The notes under the pieces: generated by a model
What the model saw: only the letters and a program-made list of their open reading frames with translations
The model's database searches: none
Told to the model about the DNA's origin: nothing
Translations under genes and position numbers: made by a program
In this document: positions 25,283-34,679 of the stretch, one piece after another
Layout: the number at the start of each line of letters is the position of its first letter
Position numbering within the stretch: position 1 is the first letter of the stretch
Assembly (NCBI GenBank): GCA_017882715.1
Contig: JADGOY010000004.1
Span: 1-60,360 of the forward strand
DNA from: Nakamurella sp.
Lineage (GTDB): Bacteria; Actinomycetota; Actinomycetes; Mycobacteriales; Nakamurellaceae
DNA length: 60,360 nt
Direction: 5' to 3'

Positions 25283-25831
25283 TCAGGACGCCGCAGTGGC
25301 CGGCGCCGGCCGCGTCTTGACCTGCTTGTGCGGGGCCAAGACCATGATCATGTTGCGGCCGTCCTGCTTGGGTGCGCTCTCCACGAACCCCAGCTCCGCG
25401 ACGTCCGCGGACAGCCGCTGCAGCAACCGGAACCCGAGCTCGGGCCTGGACTGCTCGCGGCCGCGGAACATGATGGTGACCTTGACCTTGTCCCCGGCCT
25501 TCAAGAAGCGCACCACGTGACCTTTCTTGGTCTCGTAGTCGTGCGAGTCGATCTTGGGCCGGAGCTTCATTTCCTTGATAACCGTCAGGACCTGGTTGCG
25601 TCGGGCCTCGCGAGCCTTCTGCGCGCTCTCGTATTTGAACTTGCCGTAGTCCATGAGCTTGCAGACCGGCGGCCGGGCGTCCGGTGCGACCTCGACGAGA
25701 TCGAGGTCGGCCTCTTGTGCCAGCCGCAGGGCCTCGCCGAGGGAGACGATGCCGATCTGCTCACCGGCTGCTCCGACAAGGCGAATCTCGGGAACGCGGA
25801 TCCTGTCGTTGATGCGTGGCTCGACGCTGAT
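25283..25831 (-). CDS. infC: Translation initiation factor IF-3, predicted ATC start
   Basis: IF-3 keeps 30S subunits free and checks start-codon/initiator-tRNA pairing. The 182-residue product has the N-domain ([18 protein letters not shown]), the linker ([13 protein letters not shown]) and the C-domain ([25 protein letters not shown]). No ATG, GTG or TTG lies in frame at the expected position; codons ATC-AGC-GTC-GAG sit exactly where homologues begin, five bases after a perfect AGGAGG. IF-3 is known to start on AUU in E. coli and to autoregulate by rejecting it. The frame is open 354 bp further upstream, but that stretch has no IF-3 similarity. Confidence 0.95.
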
Positions 25832-31309: not shown

Positions 31310-32884
31310 CTAGTCAGGGCGGGTGAGACCCCGGCCGGGTCGGTTGATCGAGACGGGCGCGGGCACCACCAACCCCGGGCGGCGCAGCAGCGCCAGGAAC
31401 ATCCCGTCGGTGCCCTGACGGTGCGGCCACAGCTGCACGGTCGGCCCGGCGCCGAGGTCCGGGACACCGGGCAGATACTCACGGGCATCGAGCAGCTCCA
31501 GGCCCGGCGGGCGCCGACCGATCACTCCCGCGGTCTCGGCCAGGTGCGGCGAGCAGGTGACGTACGCGATCACGCCACCGGCGCGCACCATCCGCGCCGC
31601 GGATTCCAGCAGCTCACGCTGCAGGCGGGTGAGCGCGGCGACGTCGCTGGGCTGACGGCGCCAGCGCGCCTCCGGGCGGCGACGCAGCGCGCCCAGACCC
31701 GTGCAGGGCGCATCGAGCAGTACCCGATCGAAACTGGCCTCGGGCAGGTCGGGGCGGCGGCCGTCACCGATGTGCACTCGCACCGGCAGCCCACGCACCG
31801 TGCTGCGCACCAGGTCGGCGCGGTGCGGGGTGATCTCGACGGCATCCAGCTGGGCGCCCCGCTGCGCCGCGAGCGCACCCAGTAGCGCGGCCTTTCCGCC
31901 CGGCCCCGCGGCCAGGTCGAGCCAGTGCGTGTCCTGGCCGTCGACGGCCGGCAGCGTCAACGCAGTGGCGACCAGCTGCGAACCCTCGTCCTGGACGCCG
32001 GCGCGGCCGTCAGCCACTGGCCGCAGCGCCCCGGGATCACCGCCGTCCAGGTAGACCCCGTACGGCGAGTAGGCGGCGGGTCGGCCACCGGACAGTGCGA
32101 CCAGTTCCGCGCGGTCGATGCGACCCGGCCGGGCCACCAGATGGACGGCCGGCGGTTTGTCGTCCGCCTCCAACGCCGCTTCCAGTTCTGGGTTCGTCGG
32201 CCCGCCACCGAGGGCGTCGCCCACCGCGGTGACGATCCACCGCGGGTGCGCCCGGGCGAACGCCAGGTGACCCTGCGGGTCGGTGCGCGCATCGGGAGCC
32301 AGCCGGTCGATCCAGGTCTGCAGGTCCGCCTCACTGACCCGGCGCAGCACCGCGTTGACGTACCCGGCGCCGCCCGGCCGCTCGCCAGCCCTGACCAGAT
32401 CGACCGTCGCCGAGACCGCCGCGTGCGGGGGGATCCGGGTGTGCAACAACTGGTAGGTGCCCAACCGCAAGGCGTCGATGACCACGCCGTCGAGGTCGCC
32501 GAAGGCGCGGTCACCGCAGGCTCCGATGACGCCGTCGAGCTGCCCGAGTGCCCGGCAGGTGCCGTAGGTCAGTTCGGTGGCCAGCGCGGCATCCCGGCCG
32601 GTGATGCGCCGCTGGGTGAGCAATCCCGGGAGCGTGAGGTTCGCGTAGGCGCCCTGCGATCGGACCGCGGTCAGCACGTCCAGGGCGACCCGCCTGGCTT
32701 CGTCCGGGGTGGGCGGTCGGCGGGTGGCCGGGCGTCGCGGTGGGCCGCTGGGACCACGTCGCTTGGTCCGGTCCGACTGACCACCCGCGGGGCGGTGCCG
32801 TTGCCGGCCGGAGTTGCCGCCCGCGCCGTGCGGACCCGTCCGCGGATCGTTGGGCGGGTCGCCCGGCGGGTTGGTCGGCGTCAT
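31310..32884 (-). CDS. rsmB: 16S rRNA (cytosine-5)-methyltransferase, RsmB/Sun-like
   Basis: Methylates a cytosine of 16S rRNA, m5C967 in E. coli. The 524 residues begin with a disordered basic Gly/Pro-rich stretch (about 60), then a NusB-like RNA-binding domain ([19 protein letters not shown]). The methyltransferase domain follows with the SAM site [13 protein letters not shown], the motif IV cysteine in [20 protein letters not shown] and the motif VI cysteine in [11 protein letters not shown]. The ATG overlaps the fmt stop. Confidence 0.95.
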
Positions 32885-33804
32885 CGGAGCACCTGCCCGG
32901 ACTCCGGTCGGACGCCGCGGGCCCAGTCGACAGCGGGCATCGGCCGGCGTCCCGGAGGCGTCAGCCTGCCGAGGTGGACCGCCGTTGTTCCGGTGCCCAC
33001 CAGGACTTCCTTTCGGGCGACCGACAGTTCACCGGCGGCCAGGCCGGATTCGCCGGTCGGTTCCACCGGACCGATGCCGAGCCTTCCCCACGGAGACCCG
33101 GTCCACGCGCCCGGCGCCGGCGTCAACGACCGGACAATCCGGTCCACCGCGAACGCCGGCACCGACCAGTCGATCTCGGCGTCCGCCGCCGTCACCTTCC
33201 CGGCGTAGGAAACCCCTTCGGCCGGTTGGGTTCTGGCTGCGATCGTGCCGTCCTCGATGCCGTCCAGGGTGGCCACCAGCAGGGTCGCACCGACCACCGC
33301 CAGCCGGCGCAGCAGCTCGCCGGCGGTGTCCCGGGCTCGGATCGTCTCTGTCACCACCCCGTAGACCGGACCGGTGTCCATGCCCTCCTCGAGCCGGAAC
33401 GTGCTGGCTCCGGTGATCTGGTCGCCGGCCCTGATGGCCGCCTGGACCGGTGCCGCGCCGCGCCAGGCGGGGAGCAGGGAGAAGTGCAGATTCACCCATC
33501 CGCGGGTCGGCACGGCCAGTACCGTAACGGGCAGCAGCACGCCGTAGGCGACGACCGCAGCGGCGTCCGGGGCGAGCGCCGCGAGTTGGTCCCTGAACTC
33601 CGGTGATCTCGCCGATTCCGGGGTGAGGATGGGGAGCGCGGCGCTGCGGGCCAGCTCGGCGACCGGCGACGCCGAGAGCGTACGGCCGCGCCCACGTCTG
33701 GCATCCGGCCGGCTGATCACGGCGGCCACCTCGTGCCGGGAAGCGAGCACCGCGGCCAGCGATGGCACCGCGGCTTCGGGCGTGCCGGCGAAGACGATAC
33801 GCAG
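32881..33804 (-). CDS. fmt: Methionyl-tRNA formyltransferase, predicted CTG start
   Basis: Formylates initiator Met-tRNA. The 307 residues include the family start [19 protein letters not shown], the catalytic loop [30 protein letters not shown] and a C-terminal beta domain. The codon where homologues have ATG (before RIVFAGTPE) is CTG at 33804-33802. An in-frame TGA lies four codons upstream and GAAAGG eight bases before the CTG, so no ATG/GTG/TTG alternative retains the N-terminal strand. The first GTG (33768) would delete the formyl-donor GTPE loop. CTG use is inferred and could also reflect a sequencing error. The expected neighbouring def gene is absent. Confidence 0.93.
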
Positions 33805-34058
33805 GGGATCGGCCTTTCAAGGATCGATAGGGTTTGCTGATCGAGTGATGTTCGGTTGGTCGTTGGTTGCTCGACTGGTCGTGGTGACCTGACACAGTGT
33901 GCGGGTGCGGAGCCCGACCGGGCCACACGGGTCCAGCGGTCGGGACCACCGCTCCTGGAGTCGGGATCCACCGCTCCTGCCCCGGCCGGCCTCGGCGCGA
34001 TACCCCTTGACGTGCATGAGGGCCGGGTTCGTCATGCCTGGATCGACGAAGGAGCACG

Positions 34059-34679
34059 ATGACCGCTGTCGCCCCTGACGGTCGGCCGCTGATCGGAACA
34101 GTGGTGCGGTTGGACCGGACGGTGCCCGGAGACGCCTCCGGATTGTTCGCGGCACTGGACGACGAACGGGTTTACGCCTTCGGGTTCGCCGGCGGGCCCG
34201 CTGGGCGCCCGGCCGACGAGGCCGCGATGTCGGCGATCGTGCACAGCGCGGTGACGGACTCGCAGCGGGGGCGGGTGGCGTACACCGTGCGACTGGTCGC
34301 GGACCGCGACCTCGGTCCGGCCGGAACGGTGGTCGGCACGTCCAGTCTGAGCGACCCGTCGCTGACCGACGAGCGCGTTCATCTCGGCTGGACCGGCTAC
34401 TCCCCCTCGGTGTGGGGTACCGCGGTGAACCCGGAGTGCAAGCTGTTGCTGTTGACTCATGCCTTCGAGGTGTGTGGGTTCGGCCGGGTCAAGATCCAGA
34501 CCGACATCGTGAACGCCCGATCGCAGGCCGCCATCGCGAGGCTGGGGGCGGTGCGGGAAGGGGTGTTACGGCGGCATCAACGGCGAGCGGACGGGACATT
34601 CCGGAACACGGTCGTGTTCTCGATCCTGATCTCGGAGTGGCCCGCCGTGAAGGCGGGCCTGCTCAGGCGGCTGCGCTGA
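34059..34679 (+). CDS. GNAT N-acetyltransferase, RimJ/RimL type
   Basis: A 206-residue acetyltransferase of the RimJ/RimL-like group: VRLDRTVPGDASGLFAAL at the start, GTSSLSDPSLTDERVHLGWTGY in the core, TAVNPECKLLLLTHAFEV near the acetyl-CoA site and VKIQTDIVNARSQAAIARLGA near the end. Such enzymes acetylate N-termini or small molecules; the substrate cannot be read from sequence. It is divergent from fmt and convergent with priA, and ends four bases before a perfect hairpin. Confidence 0.9.
   Translation: MTAVAPDGRPLIGTVVRLDRTVPGDASGLFAALDDERVYAFGFAGGPAGRPADEAAMSAIVHSAVTDSQRGRVAYTVRLVADRDLGPAGTVVGTSSLSDPSLTDERVHLGWTGYSPSVWGTAVNPECKLLLLTHAFEVCGFGRVKIQTDIVNARSQAAIARLGAVREGVLRRHQRRADGTFRNTVVFSILISEWPAVKAGLLRRLR

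Follow-up and report, generated by a model that had tools for sequence, protein, structure and literature searches.

In Escherichia coli, infC starts on AUU and is autoregulated through the discrimination exerted by IF3. Genes that prefer non-AUG starts are reportedly the subject of a 2020 paper by Gvozdjak and Samanta, to judge by its title. According to published work, IF3 disfavours start codons outside the set AUG, GUG and UUG (PMC4611024), initiation complexes formed on CUG have lower stability and are inefficient at initiation (PMC11497404), and in E. coli the level of Fmt influences which tRNAs initiate (PMC7949028). CUG starts are rare in bacteria: 20 ORFs, or 0.024%, were counted in 69 genomes (PMC9845219), and the value given for switches from AUG to CUG is 3.2e-5 (PMC5622118). 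In PMC9845219, expression from a CUG-start reporter was undetectable both in tobacco chloroplasts and in E. coli, a warning not to take CUG for an efficient start. It is easy to discount such starts as noise in annotation, and gene callers limited to ATG, GTG and TTG must mis-call the fmt gene described here. A literature search returned no paper pairing "CTG start codon" with "methionyl-tRNA formyltransferase", and no CTG start of fmt was reported among the matches listed.

The window, by which we mean the whole 60,360-nucleotide stretch of Nakamurella DNA that was analysed, carries an fmt gene whose reading frame appears to begin on CTG (Table 1). Its protein passed the cut-offs of both PF00551, the N-terminal formyl transferase domain (122.7 bits, cut-off 26.1), and PF02911, the Fmt C-terminal domain (53.9 bits, cut-off 21.1). 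With NCBIfam TIGR00460, against which the query carried four extra upstream residues, the score of 194.2 bits fell below the curated cut-off of 201.5, which is an annotation threshold; this model still stood at the top of the six matched. Residues N105, H107 and D143, which we take to be the conserved Asn, His and Asp of formyltransferases, are invariant across 14 aligned rows, and the best solved relatives of the protein are Fmt chains, with the alignment running from residue 1. The window genome consists of 403 contigs and is 88.6% complete. Ribosomal protein L2 was not matched in it and IF2 was matched only partially, which fits this degree of completeness.

Table 1. Positions in the window of fmt, its start region, its neighbours and infC.
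Feature	Position	Strand	Basis and remarks
fmt, methionyl-tRNA formyltransferase	32881..33804	-	307 codons from CTG plus stop; Pfam domains; solved Fmt chains as best structural relatives
Proposed CTG start codon of fmt	33802..33804	-	Sequence; aligned place is CTG in 13/17 genomes of the genus
Shine-Dalgarno-like GAAAGG, 8 nt spacing to CTG	33813..33818	-	Sequence; best duplex energy with 16S tail -7.2
In-frame TGA ending the fmt reading frame upstream	33817..33819	-	Sequence
GTG, first canonical codon downstream of CTG and rival start; its use would mean loss of the first 12 residues	33766..33768	-	
rsmB-like 16S rRNA methyltransferase gene, next gene after fmt	31310..32884	-	Its ATG and the fmt stop share the sequence ATGA
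GNAT acetyltransferase gene, divergent from fmt	34059..34679	+	def not adjacent to fmt here
infC (IF3), ATC start 25831-25829 after AGGAGG 25842-25837	25283..25831	-	IF3 domains; second non-canonical start in the window

On the minus strand, the start region of fmt reads ATCGATCCTTGAAAGGCCGATCCC CTG CGT ATC GTC TTC GCC GGC ACG CCC GAA, with CTG at 33804-33802, and the frame closes on TGA at 32883-32881. The first-pass annotation had read this CTG as the apparent start, and had described a TGA four codons upstream, a well-spaced GAAAGG, and the lack of any ATG, GTG or TTG option that would keep the conserved N-terminus. The GAAAGG is present at the spacing listed in Table 1. The TGA is indeed there, although it is the fifth codon upstream and not the fourth: four codons (AAG GCC GAT CCC) separate it from CTG. 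None of these is ATG, GTG or TTG, and the first downstream option, GTG 33768, lies twelve codons on. The annotation had also proposed a check on the fmt codon of close relatives, and this bore it out, with CTG at the aligned place in 12 other genomes of the genus and in related families. The CTG start is thus well supported, by its occurrence in most of the genus and by the control genes considered below.

All 17 genomes of the genus could be read at this place, where CTG was found in 13, ATG in 3, GTG in 1 and TTG in none. A protein search of the window genome and 60 relatives gave a match in 60 of the 61 genomes; among the 30 loci that it returned, 29 were readable by motif and comprised 23 with CTG, 4 with ATG and 2 with GTG (window included). 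Wherever the codon in the genus is non-canonical it is CTG (13/13), a codon that accounts for 347 of the 549 leucine codons (63%) in the same 17 fmt genes; the chance probability of 13 out of 13 is about 0.003 if the rows are independent, which they are not fully. The ATG and GTG starts are limited to two branches of the genus and CTG is found across it, as mapped on a quick tree in which 36 of 93 inner branches are poorly supported. Pairing with the 16S tail was detected just before CTG in all 13 loci, with energies (-5.8 to -11.8) that fall within the range of the control genes; the profile is flat over adjacent offsets and locates the start only within several bases.

In total, 186 starts were read in 18 control genes of the same genus; all were ATG, GTG or TTG, 78 of them GTG and none CTG. 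At fmt, a codon is tolerated that is absent from the starts of all the control genes. These genes were anchored by conserved motifs near the N-terminus, without constraint on the start residue, at motif-fitting loci only (5 to 15 per gene). They took the place of an automatic start-column search in neighbouring gene families, which was noisy: many of the families resembled antisense or shadow frames, and the columns often fell inside genes. Several genes were left out of the 186. The pattern for rplC forced Met, and its separate alignment gave ATG in 15/15. The N-terminus of rpe is variable; the anchored place was GTG in 11 of 15 matches, and in a separate alignment 5/19 without a start at that place have ATG or GTG 2-6 codons upstream. 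The MSGDGRP gene gave 12 pattern matches, including one CTG and one ACG, that were judged doubtful, and ATG or GTG in 12/12 when aligned. The loci of rpsN (4), rpsM, rpoA and truB (1 each) all have ATG, as do all the infA loci read in the genus (about 1-4). The patterns for rpmJ and rpsO had no matches in the loci of the genus.

The start of infC is ATC in 11 of 11 readable loci of the genus, behind a strong Shine-Dalgarno sequence (median -10.3). Across the order, 48 of the 51 rows that matched the infC pattern have ATC, two have GTG and one is out of register; this pattern missed 99 of the 150 order genomes, including 16 of the 17 of the genus. The ATC of infC was considered as the reason why only some families have CTG at fmt, and was rejected, since families with a canonical fmt start share it. 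An altered initiator-tRNA stem was sought and not found in the genus: a loop with CAU together with a GGG/CCC stem is present in 17/17 genomes.

In the order sample of 150 genomes, the motif carries CTG in 44 and ATG, GTG or TTG in 92 others, and 14 match neither motif; these are counts of codons and not of proven starts. Family f16, presumably Geodermatophilaceae in view of what we take to be the family of Goekera, has CTG in all 17 of its genomes in this sample. In two of the 44 (G049 and G057), fmt probably starts on a GTG that precedes CTG by two or four codons and overlaps the def stop; a further one, G038, has ATG three codons upstream of CTG. The class sample comprised 296 genomes, 28 from the same order and 268 from outside it. 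Here the CTG motif matched the window genome and a single outsider (1/268), G337, which has ATG three codons upstream of CTG; the pattern demands the codons of RxxFAGTP and would miss a divergent Fmt. Among named fmt loci, the best 80 of 585 divide into 71 with ATG, GTG or TTG and 9 with CTG, the latter belonging to Goekera, Klenkia (2), Geodermatophilus (2), Modestobacter (2) and two Frankiales MAGs; these 80 include no Nakamurella. As a separate observation, a TAGGAT/TAGACT box lies 7-8 bases before the ATG or GTG of fmt in nine loci of Cellulomonas (L067, L069, L070, L077, L078, L098 and L129) and Janibacter (L100 and L131), in which fmt may be leaderless.

The arrangement of def and fmt outside the genus suggests how a CTG start may have arisen. 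In eight related families outside Nakamurella, the def stop and the fmt start overlap by 4 nt as CTGA. The N of such an NTGA is the third (wobble) base of the last def codon, and the start follows from it: CGA or CCA is accompanied by ATG in 6 loci, CAC, CGC, CTC or ACC by CTG in 28, CGG or TTG by GTG in 5, and CGT or CTT by TTG in 2, in counts that pool named and unnamed loci and include some genomes twice. Of 96 tree rows, 35 have the overlap, and the genus is absent from them. CTG was found in 26 of these 35, as against 6 of 44 non-overlapping rows outside the genus, an association with few independent changes behind it (3 pairs on well-supported branches and 9 on all branches). In the genus, def is upstream of fmt in 0/17 genomes, window included, and is located elsewhere.

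We infer an ancestral def-fmt overlap in Nakamurella. The stop of def would have overlapped the start of fmt as NTGA, with the first base of the start doubling as the wobble base of the last def codon; at high G+C, this base would often be C and the start CTG. Nakamurella would subsequently have lost the adjacency of the two genes and mostly retained the codon. A simple route to a CTG start would thereby lie in the wobble position of an upstream gene that overlaps it. The starts of def were examined at 27 loci: the N-terminus could be anchored at 18 and not at 3, and the remaining 6 lacked a core match. In 17 of the 18, ATG or GTG stands five codons ahead of the anchor; in L164 the scanned range contains no canonical codon. 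In the 17 def genes of the genus whose ATG or GTG start could be read (L165-L169, L172-L181, L186 and L187), a TAnnnT box lies 6-8 bases before the start, as we would expect of leaderless mRNAs.

The preferred explanation, to which we give a probability of roughly 0.72 as a whole, is that fmt is translated from an inherited CTG that originated in the overlap, likely with a low and IF3-sensitive yield. The sequences themselves show which codon is present, that it is conserved, that alternatives are absent and how the overlap determines the start. The ordinary initiator tRNA would read CTG as formyl-methionine, and the Shine-Dalgarno sequence would position the ribosome at this codon. Synthesis of Fmt in vivo would likely be low and sensitive to IF3, because CUG is not among the three codons accepted by IF3. 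The first-pass annotation had further suggested that a weak start could link the output of fmt to initiation fidelity. As a hypothesis this is plausible, and it gains from the ATC start of infC in the same window together with the discrimination of IF3 against starts other than AUG, GUG and UUG; a weak CTG start common to many relatives may tie the supply of Fmt to the strictness of the ribosome towards start codons. A more far-reaching proposal, which we consider rather unlikely, is that in Nakamurella, and perhaps in Geodermatophilaceae, infC (ATC) and fmt (CTG) form an IF3-controlled set that is read only when IF3 stringency permits, such that the supply of formylated initiator tRNA and the stringency of start-codon choice would be coupled in one circuit.

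A strong rival, which we hold to be a serious possibility at somewhat less than even odds, is that CTG is the true start and has no regulatory meaning, having drifted from the era of the def-fmt overlap and been tolerated since little Fmt is needed. It shares the start codon with the preferred explanation and differs from it on effect, and the confidences placed in the two overlap. Its strength lies in the first base of the start, which evolves within the range of four-fold sites (53% C): selection on this base was not significant, since it changed 3 times on the genus tree, compared with an average of 5.2 changes over 57 four-fold sites, 13 of which were as slow or slower. CTG is also not essential, as 4 of the 17 genomes have ATG or GTG. 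Drift is harder to reconcile, however, with the absence of CTG from the control starts and with its persistence at fmt without the def overlap. Moreover, GTG is only one step away and frequent among the control starts, yet it is found in 1 of 17 fmt genes, and TTG never.

It is quite improbable that CTG encodes an internal leucine and that fmt starts farther upstream, as it presumably does in E. coli, where we take the Leu place to be internal. Two of the Fmt chains aligned do have Leu at the aligned place with residues before it (5uai, residue 13; 3tqq, residue 3). An ATG or GTG also occurs 2-4 codons upstream in G038, G049, G057 and G337 and in 3 of the 13 CTG loci of the genus (G014, G015 and G016, with GTG or ATG at -3 or -4). 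In contrast, the other 10 of the 13 lack any canonical codon in the 15 codons upstream, and in G002, G007, G012 and G013 none occurs anywhere between CTG and the upstream stop; in the window, the nearby TGA leaves no canonical codon for such a start. The codons before CTG and the residues that they would encode are unconserved, codons 1-8 and 11-15 are near-invariant in amino acid with freer third positions, and no leucine codon except CTG stands at that place in the 17 genomes, all of which argues for the CTG start.

Initiation at GTG 33768 is less probable still. The first-pass annotation had named this codon, the first canonical one in frame, as the place where a proteomic N-terminus would speak against CTG. 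Its use would sacrifice the conserved RIVFAGTP stretch, and the codons preceding it are under coding constraint (amino acids kept, third positions varying). GTG is found at this place in 3 of the 13 CTG loci of the genus, and two of them, G002 (N. multipartita by inference) and G013, have no canonical codon between the upstream stop and codon 25. A sequencing or assembly error, for which the fragmentation and incompleteness of the window genome might speak, is the least probable reading and is refuted for the clade by CTG in 12 other genomes of the genus, some of them single-contig, and in several families; the CTG start is very likely a clade trait. The idea that a single-base error keeps TTG 33820 out of frame was also rejected, as the other CTG genomes share the frame and need no such fix.

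The retention of CUG at a single orthologue across most of a genus provides a natural experiment on whether bacteria put initiation-pathway genes on codons that IF3 rejects. Like E. coli infC with its AUU, fmt is a translation-initiation gene with a conserved start outside AUG, GUG and UUG. It differs from infC in using CTG, and in that Fmt acts on the initiator tRNA, so that an effect of IF3 would be a putative cross-regulation. The CTGA overlap of def and fmt in eight families is akin to the ATGA and GTGA stop-start overlaps of translational coupling, except that the start is CTG and that the fmt of Nakamurella stands without the overlap. As in the rare CUG starts of other bacteria, CUG would serve as a start at fmt, presumably read by the initiator tRNA; unlike those cases, a single orthologue, fmt, retains CUG in most of the genus (13 of 17 genomes) and in every genome sampled from family f16 (17 of 17).
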